Shown here piece by piece: positions 14,179 through 32,685 of a DNA stretch of 34,458 bases. Origin of the DNA: a virus. Numbering within the stretch: position 1 is the stretch's first letter; each line of letters starts with the position of its first letter. The notes under the pieces were generated by a model. That model did not search any database and was not told the DNA's origin. It saw nothing but the letters and a program-made list of their open reading frames with translations. Location: the IMG/VR virus record IMGVR_UViG_3300046837_000164, positions 1-34,458 of that record; one strand, given 5' to 3'. The position numbers and the translations under genes are program-made.

Positions 14179-14454
14179 ATGATCGACAAAGTCCGGTCGT
14201 GGTTTGCCGACAACCAGGCCCTGGTTTATTTCCTGGTGGCACAGGCCACCGCGATTGCTGTCGGTGGTGCCAGCCTGATTGCGTATTCGGTCAATTTAGA
14301 AAACAGGGTCACAACATTGGAGACGAGGGGTAGCCCACATCTCAACGTTATTGACAACCGGCTGACGGTTTTGGAGTCGCTGACGAAATCGAACAAGGAG
14401 TCGATCGATCGGGTGGTGACGGCACTGACCAAGGGTGTGGGAGATAAGCCATGA
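14179..14454 (+). CDS. Holin-like single-span membrane protein
   Basis: 91 aa directly before the endolysin, with ATGA overlap into it. One membrane segment lies at about residues 14-37 (ALVYFLVAQATAIAVGGASLIAYSV), followed by a coiled-coil-like cytosolic or periplasmic tail (LENRVTTLET...NRLTVLESLTKSNKESIDRVV). Single-span proteins with a coiled-coil tail beside endolysins are often holins, antiholins or inner-membrane spanins. The location supports holin, but sequence alone cannot separate these. Confidence 0.6.
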   Translation: MIDKVRSWFADNQALVYFLVAQATAIAVGGASLIAYSVNLENRVTTLETRGSPHLNVIDNRLTVLESLTKSNKESIDRVVTALTKGVGDKP

Positions 14455-15011
14455 ACGAAGGTCGCAGTTTAACGCCGGCCGGGGCGAACCTGATCAAACA
14501 TTTTGAGAGTTGCCTGCAGAAGCGGGGAGAGTTGTATCATCCCTATCACTGTCCGGCTGGCGTTCTCACAATTGGATGGGGCCACACCAATCACCACGGG
14601 AGGAAATTCGATGATGACTCTCGATGGACGATGGCGGAATGTAATCAAGCGTTTCTGGAAGATATGGGGGGATTTGAGCGCGATGTACGCAAGGCTGTCA
14701 CAGTTCCTCTTGAGCCGTACCAGTTCGACGCCCTCGTCAGTTTCACATACAACGTCGGATCAGGAAACCTCAACAAAAGCACCCTCCTCAAAAAAGTGAA
14801 TGCCGGCGACTTCGAAGGCGCGGCCAAGGAGTTTGCCAAGTGGAACAAGGGCGGCGGCAAGGTGCTGGCCGGTCTGACGCGCCGGCGCGCGAGTGAATCA
14901 TTATTGTTCCAGAACATTCCCGACGAGAACTACGACGGCAAGCCCGACAAGGTGATCAAACCGCTCGACCTCGGCAACATGCCACAGCAGGTAGATGCGC
15001 CGGATGAGTAG
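14451..15011 (+). CDS. Endolysin, GH24 lysozyme family (muramidase)
   Basis: 186 aa, ATG 14451 overlapping the holin-like stop. T4-lysozyme-like domain: LIKHFES supplies the catalytic Glu19, and CPAGVLTIGWGHT supplies Cys34 and Thr40, standing for the T4 E11/D20/T26 set. The classic Asp is a Cys, as in several phage GH24 enzymes. Other family marks are DALVSFTYNVGSGNLNKSTLL and GLTRRRASESLLF. It has no signal peptide, so it needs the holin for release. It cleaves the MurNAc-GlcNAc bond of peptidoglycan. A ~25-residue tail (GKPDKVIKPLDLGN) follows the domain. Confidence 0.93.
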   Translation: MNEGRSLTPAGANLIKHFESCLQKRGELYHPYHCPAGVLTIGWGHTNHHGRKFDDDSRWTMAECNQAFLEDMGGFERDVRKAVTVPLEPYQFDALVSFTYNVGSGNLNKSTLLKKVNAGDFEGAAKEFAKWNKGGGKVLAGLTRRRASESLLFQNIPDENYDGKPDKVIKPLDLGNMPQQVDAPDE

Positions 15012-15135
15012 GCGCGAACTGCGGCACGAGCTGCGGGTGTTGCTGCGGCTGCTGGCCGAGGTGATGCGCGAGGACCAATGCCATCGCCGCATGCGTCACG
15101 CCATCATGCGGACGATCGAGCGGCTGTCAGTTTAG
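15004..15135 (+). CDS. Small Arg-rich protein after the endolysin, hypothetical
   Basis: 43 aa from ATG 15004, overlapping the endolysin stop by 8 bases. The peptide is strongly helical and charged (SRRELRHELRVLLRLLAEVMRED...HRRMRHAIMRTIERL) with no membrane segment. Codon third positions are GC-rich like the neighbours. It is the last rightward gene, and its 3' end overlaps the convergent AP2-like gene by 32 bases. Function unknown; it is too short to be a typical Rz spanin. Confidence 0.5.
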   Translation: MSRRELRHELRVLLRLLAEVMREDQCHRRMRHAIMRTIERLSV

Positions 15136-15313
15136 CCTTCCGGTAGGCCGCGGTCGCCGCTTTGGGCGTAGAAAAGTGGCCGAGTTGGATAACCCGGCCA
15201 CCAATAGTAATCCGCGCCTTGTAATAGACGTAGATCGCATCCTTGCCTTTCAGCTTTCCGCGGCGCCGCTTGTAGCGGACGGTTTCTATGCTGACGCCGG
15301 GATAGCCTTTCAC
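15104..15313 (-). CDS. Mini AP2-like DNA-binding protein
   Basis: 69 aa from GTG 15313, which overlaps the stop of the exported-protein gene (GTGA), so the two are probably translated together. The N-terminal part is basic (YKRRRGKLKGKDAIYVYYKARITIGG). The C-terminal part, RVIQLGHFSTPKAATAAYRKAK, matches the AP2/ERF pattern (LGxFxTxeeAAxAYxxA). AP2 domains bind DNA through a three-stranded sheet and in phages usually occur within homing endonucleases; here there is no nuclease part. It could regulate the block it belongs to, or be a relic of an HNH-AP2 element such as that at 18961. Confidence 0.7.
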   Translation of the reverse strand: MKGYPGVSIETVRYKRRRGKLKGKDAIYVYYKARITIGGRVIQLGHFSTPKAATAAYRKAKLTAARSSA

Positions 15314-16077
15314 ACCGCTGCAGCGTTCTTGCGGCGACGAGCCAGCCCCACCATGAACATGCCGGCCGCGATCAGACCAGGGATACCCGCACCGACTATG
15401 GGAGCTGGCACCGCTGCCGTCGGTCCCGGCTCAATGAAGAACGAATCCGGCCCGTCATTGAGGCCCGACATGCGAGCGACGAAGAGAACAGTGTCGCCCA
15501 CACTGACACCATTGAGCGTCAAGCCGCTGATCGTGTAGTCGGGGAACCCGGTGCCATTGTTGATGTCCGGCACGTTGCCGGCAGTGCCGCCCGTGAACGA
15601 CGACAGTACCGTGTGGGTGGTTAGATCGAGGAAGTAGAATGAGTTGAGAGTCTGCGCGGTGCCGGTATCGTTGATGTCGACACCGATCGAGAAGCCTAAG
15701 CTGCCGGGAGTCGCACCATTGGCCAACAGGAACGTCAGCAGCGGACTGCCGCTGCCGATTGTGTAGCCGGTGGCGAAGGTGTTATCGGCCAAGAAATTCC
15801 GGCCGCCGTTGCCCTGGTCGCTAAAAGCCTCGATGGTCGTTAGGTTGCCGCTGTTGCTGTAGTCGTTATAGCCGAAGCCAGCCGGTTGCTGCGGCTGGTT
15901 CTCGCCCGAGATAATCGCTGGAGCATTTTGCGGCTGGTTGCCATTCGGCACTGTGGCCGACAGCGTCAGCGTGGTGCCGGTGCCTGTCCAATTCTGACCG
16001 CCCAGAATGATGTCGGCCTTCGCTGACACCGGTAACAGCATCAGCGCGGCGGCTGATGCCAGTAGCACATTTCTCAT
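15310..16077 (-). CDS. Exported protein with PEP-CTERM-like C-terminal sorting signal
   Basis: 255 aa; GGAG lies 8-11 bases before ATG 16077. Residues 1-21 form a signal peptide (RNVLLASAAALMLLPVSAKA, cut likely after AKA). The body is beta-rich and low in Lys/Arg (LGFSIGVDINDTGTAQTLNSFYFLDL). The C-terminus has the tripartite sorting layout: VPAPIVGAGIPGL, a hydrophobic helix (IAAGMFMVGLA) and a basic end (RRRKN). This VPxPxVGAGxPGL variant is common in Bradyrhizobium-type PEP-CTERM proteins, which depend on a host exosortase. So the phage probably expresses an envelope-anchored or secreted surface protein in the lysogen. It runs against the lysis genes next to attP, the usual place for cargo genes. 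Confidence 0.85.
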   Translation of the reverse strand: MRNVLLASAAALMLLPVSAKADIILGGQNWTGTGTTLTLSATVPNGNQPQNAPAIISGENQPQQPAGFGYNDYSNSGNLTTIEAFSDQGNGGRNFLADNTFATGYTIGSGSPLLTFLLANGATPGSLGFSIGVDINDTGTAQTLNSFYFLDLTTHTVLSSFTGGTAGNVPDINNGTGFPDYTISGLTLNGVSVGDTVLFVARMSGLNDGPDSFFIEPGPTAAVPAPIVGAGIPGLIAAGMFMVGLARRRKNAAAV

Positions 16078-16120
16078 GAGAGTTCTCCGTCAGGTGCCAG
16101 GATCCTGAGAGGCACCGCGC

Positions 16121-16151
16121 AGCCCACCGTATGGGCAGGGCGGTACGTCCG
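16121..16151 (-). promoter_or_regulatory. 31-bp leader element, copy before the exported-protein gene
   Basis: Matches 16700-16730 at 29 of 31 bases. It contains GCCCA-N5-TGGGC; the two mismatches both fall in the 5-base loop. It begins 43 bases upstream of ATG 16077, right after the methyltransferase stop. It may be a promoter or operator, or a transcribed hairpin, shared by both genes. Confidence 0.55.
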
Positions 16152-16153
16152 TT

Positions 16154-16696
16154 TCATGGGTTGGCCTCGAAGAATGCCTGCGAGAATCCGGCCGGCGTTT
16201 CACTCCGCCTCGCCGCCCGGTGAGGTGATGGCGGCAGCAGGTGCATCCTGCTGCCCTCGGTCGCCGGCACTCGTGCCTTGTATGGAGCGTTGAAGCGGCC
16301 CCAGAGGCAGGTACGTTTCGTGTAGGCGTCGCCATAGTCGGCCGGATCGAACAGCATCACCGGCTCGCCCAGCCAGCGGTTCAGCCGCCCGACCGGATTC
16401 TCGATGACCCACCACTGCGGGCGGTGAATGAGGATGATCCGGCAGGCGGCGTCGACCGCGGACAGACCGTCGAGCAGGACCTCTTCGCCCTTGCCCGCCC
16501 ACCAGCGCGCCCCGCTGCCGGCAAACTCGGTGCATGGTGGCGCCGCCAAGACGCCGCGCACCGGATAGGGCAGCGCCTCGAACAGACGCACGTCCTCTCC
16601 GTGCTTCAGATCTATCTGCCTCACGTCGTAGCCGGCCTCGCGGTACGGGCGTGACCAGTTGCCGGTGAAGTCGAAAAGGGAGAGGATCGTCAGCAT
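16154..16696 (-). CDS. Compact cytosine-C5 DNA methyltransferase-like protein
   Basis: 180 aa from ATG 16696; the frame is open to 16774, but the 31-bp leader lies there. Motif-I-like LTILSLFDFTGNWSRPYREAGYDV binds AdoMet in this family. Residues 53-55 are PPC with the nucleophile Cys55, and residues 98-100 (IEN) correspond to motif VI. It is half the size of normal Dcm enzymes and lacks an obvious QxRxR motif VIII and a large target-recognition domain. Small proteins of this kind are common in phages and are usually annotated as methyltransferases, but activity is unproven. It could protect phage DNA from host restriction. Confidence 0.7.
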   Translation of the reverse strand: MLTILSLFDFTGNWSRPYREAGYDVRQIDLKHGEDVRLFEALPYPVRGVLAAPPCTEFAGSGARWWAGKGEEVLLDGLSAVDAACRIILIHRPQWWVIENPVGRLNRWLGEPVMLFDPADYGDAYTKRTCLWGRFNAPYKARVPATEGSRMHLLPPSPHRAARRSETPAGFSQAFFEANP

Positions 16697-16699
16697 TTC

Positions 16700-16730
16700 A
16701 GCCCACCTGATGGGCAGGGCGGTACGTCCG
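16700..16730 (-). promoter_or_regulatory. 31-bp leader element, copy before the methyltransferase gene
   Basis: Near-identical to 16121-16151 (29 of 31). It ends three bases before ATG 16696, so its 3' part also supplies AGGTGG as a ribosome site. The hairpin GCCCA-N5-TGGGC would cover that site. Its location before a second leftward gene makes a regulatory role more likely than chance. Confidence 0.55.
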
Positions 16731-16758
16731 CGTGCGGGGAGAACGAAGAGAGATTCTC

Positions 16759-16784
16759 TCCACGTCCCCTCCACGTCTGGGTGT
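16759..16784 (-). repeat. Degenerate copy of the integrase 3' end
   Basis: 23 of 26 bases match 16943-16968, inside the integrase gene. On the minus strand it reads TPRRGGDVER, compared with TPKRGADVER near the integrase C-terminus. The two copies flank attP. It may be a relic of another integrase left by a past integration or recombination event. Confidence 0.6.
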
Positions 16785-16920: not shown

Positions 16921-17946
16921 TTAAGCCTTTCCGCGCTTTCGTTCCACGTCCGCTCCACGTTTGGGCGTCGGCAACAATGCGGCCTGCTGCGCCTCGCTGG
17001 TGGGCTCGCTATGGGCATATCTCTCCACTGACGCCATGTCTGCCCAAGCTCCTGTACGGGTGAGGCCGAGTGCATCGAGCCCTCCGTATAGTCTCATCCA
17101 GGTCGCATAGTTATGACGGAAAACGTGAAAGGCGGTTCGCGCAGGAAGATCAATCCCGGCGTGGTCACAAGCCTCACTAAAAATGTCCCGCAGCCGACCT
17201 CCGTTATGGAAACGGAACAATCGCCCATTCCTGGCAAGGGTGCGAGGGTGTCCGGCAAGGGAGGCGACGACGACGGGCGGCAGATACACGGCACGGGGCT
17301 CTCCCGTCTTGGTGTCGGGGACGTAGGCATATTCCCGCTGCAGGTCGACCTGCTCGCATTGCAGCCCAAGCCCTTCTGACAACCGCAGGCCGGTGTAGTT
17401 GAGAAGCGTACAGAAGATGCCAAACTCGGCATCAATCTTGGATGCTTCGTCCAGCAGTGCAAATGTCTGCTCTGGCTTGAGCCAGAATGTCCGTTTGCTG
17501 CCGCGCCAGCCTTTCGGCCGCTTAATCTTTTTCTCGATCCCGACATGTTTCAGGATGGCAGAAACCGGTGTGTAGACTTGCCGGTTGCGCGTTGATGCCG
17601 GTGAGGCCGGATAGAGTTCGTTGGCCAAGGTGTCGATCGCCACTTGGTCAATGTCGGACAGAAGCTTCGTCGGCCATTTGTTGCAAATGGCCTCGACATA
17701 TTGCCGTTCCCCGCCGGCCAGCATGTAGGCTTTTGCTGCGCTCAAGAACAACTCCGGGTCGGCGACCTTGGCGGGATTGGAAAACTCACCACGCTCCGCT
17801 TGTCGCTTCCAGGTACTGAAGATCGTGGCAGCGGCTCGCCTCTCGCTAGCGCCCGTACTTCGGTCAAGAGCGATGCCGAGGTATTTCCCTCGGACGTACC
17901 AGAACGGCGTTTTGCCCTGACGGGGAGGGACGAGTTTCCAGGGCAT
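16921..17946 (-). CDS. int: Tyrosine recombinase (phage integrase)
   Basis: 341 aa, ATG 17946. It integrates and, with the excisionase, excises the phage at attP/attB. Catalytic set: Arg188 in NYTGLRLSEGLGL, Lys213 in TKTGEPRAV, His274-x-x-Arg277 in FHVFRHNYATW, Trp301 in place of the usual second His, and the nucleophile Tyr310 in ASVERYAH. The N-terminal part (DRSTGASERRAAATIFSTWKRQAERG) fits the arm- and core-binding domains. It is the last gene of the leftward early operon and points at attP. The excisionase-like frame overlaps its first 205 bases. The basic end TPKRGADVERKRGKA has a degenerate copy beyond attP. Confidence 0.96.
   Translation of the reverse strand: MPWKLVPPRQGKTPFWYVRGKYLGIALDRSTGASERRAAATIFSTWKRQAERGEFSNPAKVADPELFLSAAKAYMLAGGERQYVEAICNKWPTKLLSDIDQVAIDTLANELYPASPASTRNRQVYTPVSAILKHVGIEKKIKRPKGWRGSKRTFWLKPEQTFALLDEASKIDAEFGIFCTLLNYTGLRLSEGLGLQCEQVDLQREYAYVPDTKTGEPRAVYLPPVVVASLAGHPRTLARNGRLFRFHNGGRLRDIFSEACDHAGIDLPARTAFHVFRHNYATWMRLYGGLDALGLTRTGAWADMASVERYAHSEPTSEAQQAALLPTPKRGADVERKRGKA
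16943..16968 (-). repeat. Integrase 3'-end segment duplicated across attP
   Basis: Partner of 16759-16784 (23 of 26 bases). Here it is part of the intact integrase reading frame, encoding the region around TPKRGADVER. Confidence 0.6.
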
Positions 17947-18104: not shown

Positions 18105-18964
18105 CCGGTTGCCGCGGCCTTATCCGCTTCCGCGGCCGCAGGCTTGAAGCGCCGCCGGAGTGCGGCCTCCATTATCTTCTGGTCGGCCGGCTCGACCGTC
18201 TTCCATGCCTCTTTGAGGGCGGCGCTACCCTTCGCCGCCGCGATCGCCAGCACGTCGTCGAGCCGCGCGATGCGGTCGGTGGTAGTTTCCTCGGCCGCGC
18301 CGAAATCAAAACCCTCAGGCGCGGCCGAGGCATCGGGATCGGACGGATGGGGCTCGTCGATCTCCCGAACTTCTCCCGTTTCCGGGTCGTGTTGGAGCTG
18401 GGCATCCGCCAGCGGCTTGTGGGCATCCCGCGGGACCGCCAGTTCCAGCGGCGCGGGCTTTGGTGCTGCGCGCGGCGTGGTGTCTGCGCCGGGGATGTCG
18501 CCGACCTCGGTCTCGTCGAGGAAGCCGAGCCCGCAGATCGACAGAGTGGCGCGGCGCTTGGCCTTGGTCTCGGCCTTCATCAAGGTGTTAGCCAGCAACT
18601 CGCCGCGCAGGTTGGTGATACTGACGGCGCCGGTGGCAACGTCGGTGCGACCCTTGGCGTTGCGCACCTTGGCGGTGACGATGTAGATGCCTTCGCGCTG
18701 GCTCTCGCTCAGGGCCTCGACCGACACGCCGTGAATGTTTCGGAGTTGGTCGGTGCAGTCACGCAGCGCATAGAGCACCTCCTTGCCGCTCAGCGTGATG
18801 TAAGCGAAAGGCTTTGTCAGCGGGTTTAGGCCGAGGCTTTCACATACCTTAAAGTAATAGTTACTCTTCTGCTCAGGCGTCAGCTTGGAAAGGTCGCCTT
18901 TGATGACAACTCGTTCGATCAGGTCGCCGGGAGTGGATGGGGCCAGGTTGTTCATGTTGTTCAT
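18101..18964 (-). CDS. RecT/Bet-like single-strand annealing protein (putative)
   Basis: 287 aa from ATG 18964 (or ATG 18955); the upstream open frame to 19189 lies over the HNH gene and is a shadow. The core IKGDLSKLTPEQKSNYYFKVCESLGLNPLTKPFAYITLSGKEVLYALRDCTDQLR resembles the N-terminal half of phage RecT/Bet-type proteins (SLGLNPLtkPFxYi...). It continues with a beta-rich VSVEALSESQREGIYIVTAKV and TKAKRRATLSICGLGFLDE. The C-terminus is acidic and Ala-rich. The YqaJ-type exonuclease two genes upstream supports a recombination pair like Exo/Bet. The family call is inference, since the core is not strictly diagnostic. Confidence 0.6.
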   Translation of the reverse strand: MNNMNNLAPSTPGDLIERVVIKGDLSKLTPEQKSNYYFKVCESLGLNPLTKPFAYITLSGKEVLYALRDCTDQLRNIHGVSVEALSESQREGIYIVTAKVRNAKGRTDVATGAVSITNLRGELLANTLMKAETKAKRRATLSICGLGFLDETEVGDIPGADTTPRAAPKPAPLELAVPRDAHKPLADAQLQHDPETGEVREIDEPHPSDPDASAAPEGFDFGAAEETTTDRIARLDDVLAIAAAKGSAALKEAWKTVEPADQKIMEAALRRRFKPAAAEADKAAATG

Positions 18965-19428
18965 TCTCCTAATGAGGCAAATTCTCCAAAATGATCGCGC
19001 GCCGCCGCACAGTACGCAGCATGAGCATCTTGAGCATTTTGAAAACTTCCGAGAAATTTTCCAGCGATCGACGAAAACCATCTGTTCCGTCTCTTGTCGT
19101 AATACGCACCTTTCAGGCCGGATGACGTATCGATATGCCGCCTCACATTCGCGGCGTTTTGCTTTCTCGTTGCGAGTCGCAAATTGCAAAGTCTATTGTC
19201 GGATCGATCACCATTGATGTGATCTATCTCGGCAGACGGCATCTCTCCATATTCGAAGAACCAAGCCAGCCGATGTGCCAAGTAGCGTCGACTGTGAATT
19301 TCTATTTCCCAATAACCACTGCGCATTAAACTTCCAGCACGCGCGCCATAGCGGCATTTATGTCTACTGATCGACCAATGAAAAAATCCCGTGACGGGAT
19401 CATATGTCAATTCATCAAGCGGATTCAT
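18961..19428 (-). CDS. HNH homing endonuclease with C-terminal AP2 domain
   Basis: 155 aa from ATG 19428 (14-base overlap with the exonuclease gene); its stop overlaps the RecT-like ATG (ATGA). The HNH_3 type nuclease is RLAWFFEYGEMPSAEIDHINGDRSDNRLCNLRLATRKQNAAN, with IDHINGD and the N..NLRLAT signature. It is followed by an AP2-like part, GLKGAYYDKRRNRWFSSIAGKFLGSFQNAQDAHAAYCAAARDHFGEFA. This is the classic free-standing phage homing endonuclease. Its GC is visibly lower than that of the flanking recombination genes, which suggests later insertion between the exonuclease and annealing genes. Confidence 0.9.
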   Translation of the reverse strand: MNPLDELTYDPVTGFFHWSISRHKCRYGARAGSLMRSGYWEIEIHSRRYLAHRLAWFFEYGEMPSAEIDHINGDRSDNRLCNLRLATRKQNAANVRRHIDTSSGLKGAYYDKRRNRWFSSIAGKFLGSFQNAQDAHAAYCAAARDHFGEFASLGE

Positions 19429-20212
19429 TTGTACATTCTCGCAATGAGAGTCTACCGGCCCGGTCACGAGTCACACGCACTCCGTGCCCCTCGCACTTCT
19501 TGGCATCGGCCGGGACCATGGCCTTGAGTGTTTTCTCGGCCTGTTCGGCTTGCCGCTTGGCGGCAATGTTCTCCAGCCAGAGCGATGCTTCGGCGCCCCA
19601 TGTGTTGTTGCCTTCCATGTCATAGACCTTGCCCGGTATTGGCGGCACCACCGGCCCGTCGATCTTGACCGGCGGTGTGCGTGACTGCACGCAAGCCATG
19701 AACGCGGTGGCGCGCTGCCATAACTCCGCGCCGTAGTCCTCGTCCCATTCGACGAGGTCGACGATCGGCTCGCGGGCGCCAAGGACGATCGACAGCGCAC
19801 ATTGTTTCACGCCGGTCATCGCCATCTGCCAGTGCAGTTGCGGCTGATAGCGGCTGACCAACACCTCGAATGGCTCGTGGCCGCCGCAGTGTTTCGTCTC
19901 GATCGGACAGCCGTGCAGATCGGACCATCCGTCGAGCGTGCAGGCCGCCCAGCCGTTGGAATGTGCGACGACCTCGCCGCGGCGTGATACCGGGCCGCGC
20001 TTGAGGTCAAACCAGTCGAGGTTCAATTGCTCGGTGCATTCGCCGAGCCGCACCGGCCAGACCTCGGACAAGTCTTCCGGCACAAACGCCGGATCGTCGG
20101 TCAGTTCCAGATACAACGCCATGATCCGGGCGACATCGGCTACCATCAGGCAGGCCACTCTGCTGGCGGTCAGCTTGCCGCGGCGGGCGTCGATCTGGGC
20201 GGGCGTCAGCAT
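19415..20212 (-). CDS. YqaJ-type viral exonuclease (lambda Exo-like nuclease fold)
   Basis: 265 aa from ATG 20212. It would degrade one strand of duplex ends so the annealing protein can act. Nuclease marks: LTASRVACLM near the start, LGECTEQLNLDWFD (Glu), TLDGWSDLHGCPIETKHCGG (Asp and the E-x-K pair), and SRYQPQLHWQMAMTGV (the Q/Y helix). These follow the PD-(D/E)XK order of YqaJ/lambda Exo proteins. A C-terminal helical segment (LENIAAKRQAEQAEKTLKAM) is also normal. Tight overlaps with both neighbours put it in the leftward early operon. Confidence 0.87.
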   Translation of the reverse strand: MLTPAQIDARRGKLTASRVACLMVADVARIMALYLELTDDPAFVPEDLSEVWPVRLGECTEQLNLDWFDLKRGPVSRRGEVVAHSNGWAACTLDGWSDLHGCPIETKHCGGHEPFEVLVSRYQPQLHWQMAMTGVKQCALSIVLGAREPIVDLVEWDEDYGAELWQRATAFMACVQSRTPPVKIDGPVVPPIPGKVYDMEGNNTWGAEASLWLENIAAKRQAEQAEKTLKAMVPADAKKCEGHGVRVTRDRAGRLSLRECTNESA

Positions 20213-28602: not shown

Positions 28603-30213
28603 ATGGGTCTGCACGGGATAGGTGCGATCAAGGGCAAGAAAAAACCGGACGCTGTGCGAGGGGGTAGTCCTCCACCCTGGGGGAAGAAAACCCTATCGCG
28701 GCTCGACCGGGTGCTTGTGTTCCTGGAATTTTTGCCGATCACCAAAGGCAAGTTGGTCGGACACAATCTAGAATTGTTGCCGTCGCAGCGGGCCTTCGTC
28801 GAGGACTTGTACGGGCGCGAGGAGGGTCAGGTCCGGCTCGGGATATTTTCCGAACCGCGCGGCAACGGCAAGACCGGATTGATCGCAGGATTGATGCTTT
28901 GCCATCTGCTGGGACCGGAAAGCGAGCTGCGCGGCGAGTGTTATTCAGCCGGCATCGACCGGCTGCAGGCCGCGCTGATCTTCAACGAGATGGAAGCGAT
29001 CATTCACGCGGTGCCGGAATTCAAAGCGCGCTGCAACATCCAACGCTTCCGCAAGATCATCGAGGTGCTGGACGGCGACGGCAAGGGCTCGAAATACGAG
29101 TCTCTATCGGCCGACAGCCGGCGGGCGCACGGTTTGGCGCCCAGTTTCTGGGCCTATGACGAGATGGCGCAGGCCAAGGATCGCGTTCTATTCGACAATC
29201 TGCAGACCGCGATGGGCAAGCGCCGCCGCTCGCTCGGCGTCGTGATCTCGACGCAGGCTGCGGATAACGATCACGCGCTGTCGCAATTGATCGACGACGT
29301 TAAGACCGGCGCCGATCCGTCGATGGTGGTGCATTTGCTGACGGCGCCAACGGATGCCGACCCGTTCGATGCGGACGTAATCCGCAGCGTCAATCCGGCC
29401 TTTGGCAAGTTTCTCGACGAGGCCGATGTGCTGGCCGAGGCCGAGCGGGCGCGGCGGATGCCGTCGTTTGAGAGCGCATTTCGCAATTTGCGGTTGAACC
29501 AGCGAATTGCGCCGTTCGGGCGCGACCAACTGCTGACGCCGGATGTGTGGTCGCAGGGCGATGCGCCGATCGACGAGGCGATGTTTGGCGATGGCCGGCC
29601 GGTTTTCGGTGGGCTCGATTTGTCATCGACGGTCGACCTGACGGCGTTGGTGCTGGCCGCCGAGGACGACGCCGGTAATGTGCATCTGCTGCCGCAGGCG
29701 TGGACGCCGGCCGACACGCTGGCGGAACGGATGCTGTATGACCGTGCGCCCTATGATGCCTGGGTACGCGCCGGGCAACTCACTGCGGTGCCGGGCAAAG
29801 CGATCGACTACGACTGGGTAGCGATGGCGCTGGCCGATGCCGGCGCGCGGATGAACCTGTGCCAGGTCAACTATGACCGCTGGGGCATCAAGCAGTTCAG
29901 CCAGGTGCTCGACCGGCTCGGGATCACGGCACCGCTCGAGCCGATGGGCCAAGGTTTTCAGGATATGTCGCCGGCGGTGAAGACGTTTCAGTTGCTGGCG
30001 GTGAGTGGCCGCATCCGGCACGGCAATCATCCGCTGTTGCGCTGGTGCTTTGCCAATGCGGTGGTGACGCGCGATGCCGCCGACAATTGCAAGCTCGACA
30101 AGGCAAAGGCGTATGGCCGCATCGACGTTGCGGTGGCGGCGATCATGGCGGTCGGTGCGCTGAAGGCGACGACGGCAACACCGGAATACGACATTGCGGC
30201 TTTGATCGGTTAG
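28603..30213 (+). CDS. terL: Terminase large subunit (ATPase-nuclease)
   Basis: 536 aa. Packaging motor of the Terminase_1 type. Walker A SEPRGNGKT at residues 83-91, Walker B FWAYDE at 182-187, a coupling segment VVISTQAA near 213-220, and nuclease acids in GGLDLSSTVDLTAL (Asp339) and near the end in GRIDVAVAAIMA. The size is normal. ATG 28603 follows a GGG-rich leader (GGGTTAGGG). No small subunit gene is recognisable beside it. It starts the late structural cluster, and the next gene has its own ribosome site. Confidence 0.95.
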   Translation: MGLHGIGAIKGKKKPDAVRGGSPPPWGKKTLSRLDRVLVFLEFLPITKGKLVGHNLELLPSQRAFVEDLYGREEGQVRLGIFSEPRGNGKTGLIAGLMLCHLLGPESELRGECYSAGIDRLQAALIFNEMEAIIHAVPEFKARCNIQRFRKIIEVLDGDGKGSKYESLSADSRRAHGLAPSFWAYDEMAQAKDRVLFDNLQTAMGKRRRSLGVVISTQAADNDHALSQLIDDVKTGADPSMVVHLLTAPTDADPFDADVIRSVNPAFGKFLDEADVLAEAERARRMPSFESAFRNLRLNQRIAPFGRDQLLTPDVWSQGDAPIDEAMFGDGRPVFGGLDLSSTVDLTALVLAAEDDAGNVHLLPQAWTPADTLAERMLYDRAPYDAWVRAGQLTAVPGKAIDYDWVAMALADAGARMNLCQVNYDRWGIKQFSQVLDRLGITAPLEPMGQGFQDMSPAVKTFQLLAVSGRIRHGNHPLLRWCFANAVVTRDAADNCKLDKAKAYGRIDVAVAAIMAVGALKATTATPEYDIAALIG

Positions 30214-30705: not shown

Positions 30706-32685
30706 ATGCTTTATCAGCAGCGCGCGGCGCCGCCGCCCAGCGGCGAGCCGGATGAATTTGTGTTGTCGGATGGTTCGATTGACCGCATGGGCGACGTGGT
30801 CGAGCCGGAAGGATGGCAACTCGACCGGATCAAGAGCGACCCGCCCGTGCTGTTCAACCACGATCGCAACCAGATCGTCGGGCGATGGACCAACATTCGC
30901 GTCAAGGAAGGCAAACTGATCGGCCGGATTGTCTGGACCAAATCCGACAAGTGGCCGATGGGATCTTACATCCGCGACCTGGTGCGCGAGGGCATCCTGC
31001 GCACCGTGTCGGTCGGGTTTCAGCCGGTTGCTAAGCAGCCGCTTACCAAAGAGGCCGATCCGCGTGACGGCCCATGGCGCTTTACCAGGTCTCAGTTGCT
31101 CGAGTGCTCGCTGGTATCGGTTCCGGCAAACCCGAATGCCTTGGCGCTGTCCAAGGATCTGCCGCGCGATGTCCTCGCTACGGTCTTCCGCCAGCCAGCA
31201 GGAAGCCCTGACGAGCTGCGTGCGTTTCCCGCCAAGTCAGGCAAAACCATCGTGGAAACGAGAACGAAAATGCAAACCCAGACGATTTCCCAGAAGATCC
31301 AGGCGGCCCAGCAAAACCTCAGCATGCTGCGCGAAGGTCTCAACGACCTTGCATCCAAGCAAGATCTCGATGCCGAGGAAAAGAAGCGTTACGAGGAAGA
31401 TCTGCCGGCGCAGATCGAGGCGGTGCGCCGCGAACTTGATGCCCACCGGCGCGTCGAGCGTTCCCTGGTCGACGATACCACGCCGGCGCCACCGCAGCAG
31501 GAAATCCTGCCGCCGCTGCCCACCAACAACACGCCGGTGCAGCCGAGGGATGACGGGCGCAAACTGTTTGCCATTCCGAGGAAGAAGGTCGAGCCGGGCG
31601 AATACGTCGCGCGTGCGCTCGCGGCCTGGACCAAGCACCATGTGACCAAGGACCCGCTGGAGAAGATCCTGCGCGATGGTTACGGCAACGACGAGATGAC
31701 CAACGTGGTGCTGCGCGCCGCGGTTAATCCAGCAATGACCACCGTTGCGACTTGGGCAGCAGAGTTGGTGCAGACCAGCAACGTCGATTTCCTCGATCGC
31801 CTGATCCCCAACTTCATCTATCCGCAACTGAAAGCATTGGGGACCAGCTACACCTTCCCCAATGGCACCGGCGTCATGAAAATCCCGGTGCGGGCGGTCA
31901 CGCCGGCGCTGGCGGGCGCGTGGGTTGGCGAAGGCGCCGCCAAGCCGGTCAAGCGCGCATCATTCTCGACCGTGACGCTGTCGCCGACCAAGCTTGCGGT
32001 GATCTCTACCTTCAGCGAAGAAATGGCGATGTACGGACTGCCGTCGATCGAGGGCATCATCCGGCAGGCGATGGCGGACGATACCGGCATTGCGCTCGAT
32101 ACCTACCTGATCGACAACGTCGCGGCCACGGCCGGCGTCCGTCCGGCCGGCCTGCTCAACGGCGTCACGCCGATCACGGCCTCGGCGGCAACACCGGCGA
32201 CGGTGGCGATGGTGGCCGACCTCAAGGCGTTGGTCGCGGCGATCACCGCGGTCGGCGGCGGCGGCCAGGGCAGGGTGATCGCGCTCTTGGTCAATCCGGC
32301 ACAGGCGCTTTCGCTCGGGGCCGCGCAGACCACGACCGGGGATTTCCTGTTCAGCAGTCCCTCCGATGCCGCATCCAGGTTCGGCATGAACTTGATCGTC
32401 TCGCAGACTGTCCCGGCCGGGCGGGTGATTGCGATCGATGCGGCCGACTTTGCCACGGCATCCGGCGACGTGCCGCGCTTTGCGGTGTCGACCGAGGCAA
32501 CGTTGCACGAGGAAGACACGTCACCACTCGCACTCGGGTCCGGTGCTCAGGGTTCGGGTGTGCTGGCGGTGCCAATGCGGTCGCTATTCCAGACCGATGC
32601 GGTCGCAATCCGCATGAGCATGCATGTGACATGGGCCATGCGGAGGCCTTCGATGGTGCAGACCATCGCAGCCGTGACCTGGTAG
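30706..32685 (+). CDS. Prohead protease-major capsid protein fusion (HK97 fold)
   Basis: 659 aa in one frame. Residues 1-165 are an S78-type prohead protease: His52 in FNHDR, Ser102 in RTVSVGF, and the LLECSLVSVPANPNA end. Residues 189-255 are a helical scaffold (delta-like) region rich in Glu/Lys. Residues ~285-659 are the HK97-fold capsid: YVARALAAWTK, NPAMTTVATWAAELV, GTGVMKIPVRA, WVGEGAAKPVKRASFSTVTL, KLAVISTFSEEM, LNGVTPI and a C-terminal AVAIRMSMHVTWAM. The fusion should cut itself apart during maturation. ATG 31270 (residue 189), with GAGAA upstream, could also start free capsid protein (471 aa). Confidence 0.93.
   Translation: MLYQQRAAPPPSGEPDEFVLSDGSIDRMGDVVEPEGWQLDRIKSDPPVLFNHDRNQIVGRWTNIRVKEGKLIGRIVWTKSDKWPMGSYIRDLVREGILRTVSVGFQPVAKQPLTKEADPRDGPWRFTRSQLLECSLVSVPANPNALALSKDLPRDVLATVFRQPAGSPDELRAFPAKSGKTIVETRTKMQTQTISQKIQAAQQNLSMLREGLNDLASKQDLDAEEKKRYEEDLPAQIEAVRRELDAHRRVERSLVDDTTPAPPQQEILPPLPTNNTPVQPRDDGRKLFAIPRKKVEPGEYVARALAAWTKHHVTKDPLEKILRDGYGNDEMTNVVLRAAVNPAMTTVATWAAELVQTSNVDFLDRLIPNFIYPQLKALGTSYTFPNGTGVMKIPVRAVTPALAGAWVGEGAAKPVKRASFSTVTLSPTKLAVISTFSEEMAMYGLPSIEGIIRQAMADDTGIALDTYLIDNVAATAGVRPAGLLNGVTPITASAATPATVAMVADLKALVAAITAVGGGGQGRVIALLVNPAQALSLGAAQTTTGDFLFSSPSDAASRFGMNLIVSQTVPAGRVIAIDAADFATASGDVPRFAVSTEATLHEEDTSPLALGSGAQGSGVLAVPMRSLFQTDAVAIRMSMHVTWAMRRPSMVQTIAAVTW

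Follow-up and report, generated by a model that had tools for sequence, protein, structure and literature searches.

Can a bacteriophage make use of the surface-sorting machinery of its host by supplying that machinery with substrates? The question is raised by a locus within a 34,458-base IMG/VR virus record, which was analysed over its full length and is referred to here as the window. The record encodes a terminase (28603-30213), a capsid-protease (30706-32685), a tape measure protein, a lysozyme and an integrase. Between a DNA methyltransferase-like gene and a convergent lysozyme gene, its minus strand carries two open reading frames, the larger of which (15310-16077) has an ATG start and encodes a 255-aa exported protein with a sorting-type tail. 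This protein, whose N-terminus reads MRNVLLASAAALMLLPVSAKA/D and whose C-terminus reads AVPAPIVGAGIPGLIAAGMFMVGLARRRKNAAAV, consists of a predicted signal peptide, MRNVLLASAAALMLLPVSAKAD (codons 1-22; 16012-16077), a mature beta-sandwich body of the family designated A (15412-16011; assigned from the AF2 model of a relative, L002, and from conserved motifs), and a C-terminal VPAPIVGAGIPGL-helix-RRRK sorting-type signal of the GAGxP class (15313-15411), for which PEP, VPLPA or PEPxxWA tails substitute in relatives. A leader of approximately 75 nt with inverted repeats (16078-16153, minus strand) forms the left boundary of the cassette, and the upstream neighbour is the methyltransferase-like gene (16154-16774, minus strand; phrog_757, E 1e-44). 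The smaller frame (15104-15313) has a GTG start, encodes a 69-aa AP2-like protein and overlaps the stop of the cargo gene by the four nucleotides GTGA, and the phage lysozyme, or endolysin (14451-15011; PF00959, E 9.5e-43), lies convergently on the plus strand. Both frames, their overlap, the signal peptide, the beta-rich body, the tail and the opposed lysozyme are thus as the original prediction described them. That prediction also placed the pair next to attP, and a tyrosine integrase is indeed nearby (16921-17946, minus strand; PF00589, E 1e-15), but the window contains no tRNA genes, and attP is here only putative. The best plasmid match of the integrase, at 37.5 % identity over 96 %, is from Bradyrhizobium elkanii, which only hints at a host within the Hyphomicrobiales.

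The answer that we favour, as reasonably probable, is that the gene is mobile phage cargo whose product is displayed on the host surface through exosortase-type sorting by the host. The signal peptide, as read from the sequence, would direct export through the Sec pathway. To judge from how such tails behave among relatives, the VPxP..GAGxPGL-helix-Arg tail would then be read by an exosortase-type system of the host, which would remove it and deliver the protein to the outside of the cell or into its exopolysaccharide layer, a destination suggested by known PEP-CTERM proteins (PMC1569441). The tail class follows the phage, and hence presumably the host, the body is exchangeable, and the beta-sandwich may alter the envelope or the exopolysaccharide layer.

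The closest known counterpart is the PEP-CTERM/exosortase (EpsH) sorting system (PMC1569441), which has the variants VPLPA-CTERM (TIGR03370) and PEPxxWA-CTERM (NF035944). Common to both are a signal peptide, a C-terminus made up of motif, helix and basic cluster, and diverse unrelated bodies behind one tail, with several such proteins per genome. In contrast to that system, the proteins considered here are phage-encoded, one body family bears several tail classes, the GAGxP tail of the window lacks a curated model, and the exosortase is not on the phage; indeed, no exosortase genes were found in the phage records searched. Sigma-54 sites occur upstream of bacterial PEP-CTERM genes, whereas sigma-54-like sites upstream of the genes of this family show no clear excess over shuffled sequence. 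The original prediction knew of no described phage system of this kind, and the open-access literature searched, with most subscription journals lying outside its coverage, likewise gave no account of phage-encoded exosortase substrates. If the favoured reading is true, an entire class of surface-sorting systems in bacteria, the function of which is as yet little understood, is being exploited by phages, exosortases become tied to phage-host conflict and to the biology of soil biofilms and exopolysaccharides, and one could predict from the tail class of a protein which sorting system an uncultured phage relies on, and thereby reduce the range of its possible hosts.

The body A family is a large one, carried by many soil phages. 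A first scan of IMG/VR gave relatives of the window protein at 50-96 % identity, and a search with the family alignment places body A relatives on at least 218 viral stretches in that database. There are 87 distinct full-length phage homologues, in all of which signal peptide, body and tail are kept. Close relatives of the window protein were found in neither isolate phages nor plasmids, and a scan of 85,000 bacterial and archaeal genomes of GTDB with short exact patterns, a method that misses distant copies, found no body A relatives. The window protein itself matches no Pfam, NCBIfam or PHROG model, and PADLOC gave no match for the cargo. The N-terminal signal peptide expected of a PEP-CTERM-type exosortase substrate is present, and among 34 homologues its residues A19 and A21 are invariant or nearly so. 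Within the body, the motifs GNQ, NGTGFPD and NDGPDSFF are invariant among the closer relatives and mostly kept in the wider set, and a CxxC pair (C33, C36) is shared by all 47 relatives in an alignment that leaves the window out. At the corresponding position of the window protein (15907-15918, minus strand), A-I-I-S replaces CxxC, both cysteines having gone together.

Between relatives, dN of the body is 0.01-0.21 against a dS of 0.14-1.65. Body A is under purifying selection, and so wide a gap marks it as a functional protein rather than a hypervariable one. Hypervariation of the body as an arms race was considered and is ruled out by this selection; the body usually tracks its flanks, and the swaps described below are replacements. 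The mature body of L002 was modelled by AF2 as a beta-sandwich (pLDDT 87, pTM 0.88), an earlier full-length model having been poor (pLDDT 65). Among its structural neighbours, an Akkermansia enzyme scores best with a beta domain (Z 7.6) and carbohydrate-binding modules follow (Z approximately 5-6), but all lie within background. Nothing else in the PDB exceeded that level (the lowest Foldseek E was 0.13), the poor full-length model had no match below E 0.001 in a library of viral structures, and sequence searches against solved structures returned nothing at E 0.5 or better. Since the fold matches lie within background, no activity is supported for body A.

What the displayed body would do is thus a matter of analogy. 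The most likely role, which we propose tentatively and at somewhat less than even chances, is that it hinders the adsorption of other phages and the loss of progeny to cells already infected and to debris, as does Llp, the superinfection-exclusion lipoprotein of phage T5 (PMC9586334). Llp too is a phage-encoded exported protein at the outer membrane, and the analogy is one of function only. Llp differs in being a small lipoprotein of unrelated sequence with a known receptor, FhuA; here there is a sorting-type tail. The chief rival is a role in exopolysaccharide binding and aggregation like that of PepA, a flocculation-associated bacterial PEP-CTERM protein (NF033554; PMC9850573): by tying exopolysaccharide to the cell, the phage protein would promote host aggregation or flocs, which would favour either the lysogen or the transmission of the phage. 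When PepA is overexpressed, soluble exopolysaccharide falls, bound polymers increase and flocs form again (PMC9850573), PepA shares with the present proteins a sorting tail, and the modelled beta-sandwich is of a type found in carbohydrate-binding modules. Moreover, in two of the viral stretches fetched for comparison, which are labelled here with L-numbers (L026:3380-4102 and L102:7165-7914), the gene immediately upstream of the family member encodes another exported protein, of a different kind but also ending in a PEP-CTERM tail, and that of L026 resembles floc_PepA along its length (40 bits, E 3e-10). However, this match falls below the cut-off of 80 bits and belongs to a neighbouring protein, not to the body A family, which has no significant similarity to PepA outside the tail; the fold match, as noted, is within background; and the placement of many copies among late genes, described below, better suits a role in the lytic phase. 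An aggregating function is accordingly regarded as possible but unlikely.

The case for surface sorting, as distinct from simple attachment to a membrane, comes from the tails. Four classes occur among the relatives, namely GAGxP, as in the window, PEP-CTERM, VPLPA-CTERM and PEPxxWA-CTERM. The tripartite layout of a short proline motif, a hydrophobic helix and a basic cluster is found in the window protein and in the full-length homologues listed, and the order of motif, helix and arginines is maintained across all classes. Members with PEP, VPLPA and PEPxxWA tails pass four curated models: TIGR02595 (22.5 against a cut-off of 16 bits), PF07589 (up to 31.5 against 20.7), TIGR03370 (26.5 against 25.35) and NF035944 (41.5 against 35). 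The window protein itself matches none of the four, for which reason its membership among the curated PEP-CTERM substrates is not claimed; it is probable that it works like one. The standing of GAGxP as a sorting signal derives instead from its exchange with classes that have curated models. A tree of 81 bodies, built without signal peptide and tail, requires at least nine changes of tail class, among them four separate gains of PEPxxWA, and well-supported branches force eight gains or losses of GAGxP. A smaller, earlier tree of 56 bodies had only three changes, as opposed to the nine of the wider set.

The classes are also consistent within a phage. All of the 21 distinct sets, that is, stretches encoding at least two different exported proteins with sorting tails, hold to a single class, the classes being assigned by motif rules of our own making and the sets not all being independent lineages. 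When classes were shuffled, 12.4 sets were concordant on average, and none of 200,000 shuffles reached 21. With the sets dropped that had been fetched by their tails, and with a lineage that had contributed two sets reduced to one, so that those remaining had been fetched by body alone, 12 of 12 were concordant against an expected 7.0 (P = 1.5e-4). Such concordance fits a tail that is matched to a host machine. The reading of a PEP-CTERM-like sorting signal in the window is well supported by the behaviour of the tail classes and by the relatives that pass curated models, though not by a match of the window's own tail.

These same observations bear on the view that the product is a plain membrane-anchored periplasmic protein, its helix and arginine cluster a stop-transfer anchor and its likeness to a sorting signal compositional. 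That the window tail matches no curated model would agree with this, as would the shortness and low complexity of tails of this kind. An anchor, however, would not need a known address motif at each change of class, and the passing of four sorting models by relatives, the keeping of class-specific motifs in concordance within a phage and the retention of the whole layout in every class all count against a mere anchor, which we therefore consider improbable.

The GAGxP tail is not peculiar to body A. A search with its motif gave 78 tail-bearing proteins, of which 20 have body A, 20 have an unrelated body, B, and 38 have other bodies; on plasmids no credible match was obtained, where the low-complexity filter probably hides such tails. 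At least 12 further different bodies were seen behind this tail on viral contigs (L315-L385). One 8.5-kb phage contig (L342; also L297) encodes three different GAGxP-tail proteins, and in L345 the terminase is flanked on both sides by GAGxP-tail proteins of different bodies. The tail of L150:1157-1933, VPGPTVGA-VPEPATWAMM, is an apparent chimera of GAGxP and PEPxxWA in which one class is laid over another. PEPxxWA-tail proteins are also encoded in L170, L185, L187, L189 and L190, whose IMG numbers resemble those of isolate genomes and which may be prophages with named hosts.

That the body can be exchanged between signal peptide and tail is shown by pairs of closely related phages. L007, which encodes body A, and L294, which encodes body B, have flanks that are 79-85 % identical over more than 1 kb on each side; the upstream match ends at nucleotide 72 of the gene, where the signal peptide ends, and the downstream match resumes at approximately nucleotide 676, where the tail starts, with no similarity in between. 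In the window lineage, the same clean swap separates L002 from L272 (the same contig as L146), which has the same leader, signal peptide, tail and AP2 gene but carries body B, so that there the signal peptide is kept despite an unrelated body. Bodies A and B are unrelated by profile comparison. Body B (GTGDNVIF...FEHYRIDV; L272-L314) is present on 43 viral stretches and bears GAGxP, VPLPA and PEPxxWA tails. An exchange of alleles within family A is seen between L012 and L062, whose flanks are 95-99 % identical and whose bodies are 74 % identical. The leader is conserved in L001, L002 and L075 as well as in L146/L272 with its unrelated body; its RNA folding is not significant (z -1.84), and Rfam has no match in the window. 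From these patterns, we lean, by a little, towards a wider proposal, in which soil phages would possess a plug-in form of surface display: recombination would swap unrelated bodies between a constant signal peptide and an exosortase tail matched to the host, so that a phage could present an exoproteome of its own through host sorting. Close phages in which bodies A and B stand on the same tail offer a natural experiment on the role of the cargo.

The position of the gene varies from phage to phage. It adjoins the integrase in the window, L001, L005 and L075; lies between terminase and capsid-protease in L017; follows the portal gene in L013 and L048; follows the DNA polymerase gene, with a four-base overlap, in L071; and follows an amidase endolysin in L072. 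Relatives with terminase and capsid clusters like those of the window carry the cargo between those clusters, and the window carries it by the lysis and integrase genes. So varied a set of neighbourhoods marks the gene as mobile cargo, and its status as phage cargo, as had been predicted, is supported. As with morons and lysogenic-conversion genes, this gene is an addition whose position differs from one related phage to another, and in the window lineage it adjoins the integrase. Unlike morons, it often sits within late or replication operons with short upstream gaps, and its body can be exchanged while the address tail stays fixed. Many of the late-operon copies are separated from the upstream gene by only tens of bases, a gap so short that a promoter of their own is unlikely. 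Their positions argue against a role restricted to lysogeny, and expression of the cargo is probably not confined to that state; the lysogenic conversion first envisaged is in keeping with the integrase-adjacent copies but is not supported as a general role, given the many copies that lie in the late operon between terminase and capsid genes or that follow portal, DNA polymerase or endolysin genes.

Late placement might instead mark the protein as a factor of the lytic cycle, accessory to lysis or virion release, and several copies do adjoin endolysins or sit within the packaging operon. Yet the neighbours vary widely, with DNA polymerase and integrase among them, and unrelated bodies are found in similar neighbourhoods, which leaves such a role a little more doubtful even than the plain anchor. 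Host DNA can flank the viral part of an IMG/VR contig, and many bacteria possess PEP-CTERM genes, yet it is very improbable that these are host genes swept into viral contigs: copies are enclosed by terminase and capsid genes or share bases with a DNA polymerase gene, the pattern scan of 85,000 genomes found no relative, and the window itself encodes a terminase, a capsid-protease, a tape measure protein and an integrase.

The AP2-like protein is a companion of one lineage. The original prediction took it to be coupled to the cargo, and the pair does occur, with the four-base overlap, in the window, L002, L005, L075 and L272; however, it is absent from L001, the closest relative, whose cargo protein is 95 % identical, and from nearly all other copies examined. 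Its name derives from matches of the 69-aa frame to the C-termini of HNH endonucleases in PHROG (phrog_953, E 4e-6; phrog_99, E 2e-5), and not from Pfam AP2, to which it has no match at E 1. It is perhaps a small regulator, or else what is left of a mobile endonuclease or other element that brought the cassette. In L271 (2501-2686), an AP2-like protein is encoded with no cargo gene in front of it. The window itself encodes, at 18961-19467 on the minus strand, an HNH endonuclease (HNH_3) with an AP2-like C-terminus, from which the 69-aa protein may derive.
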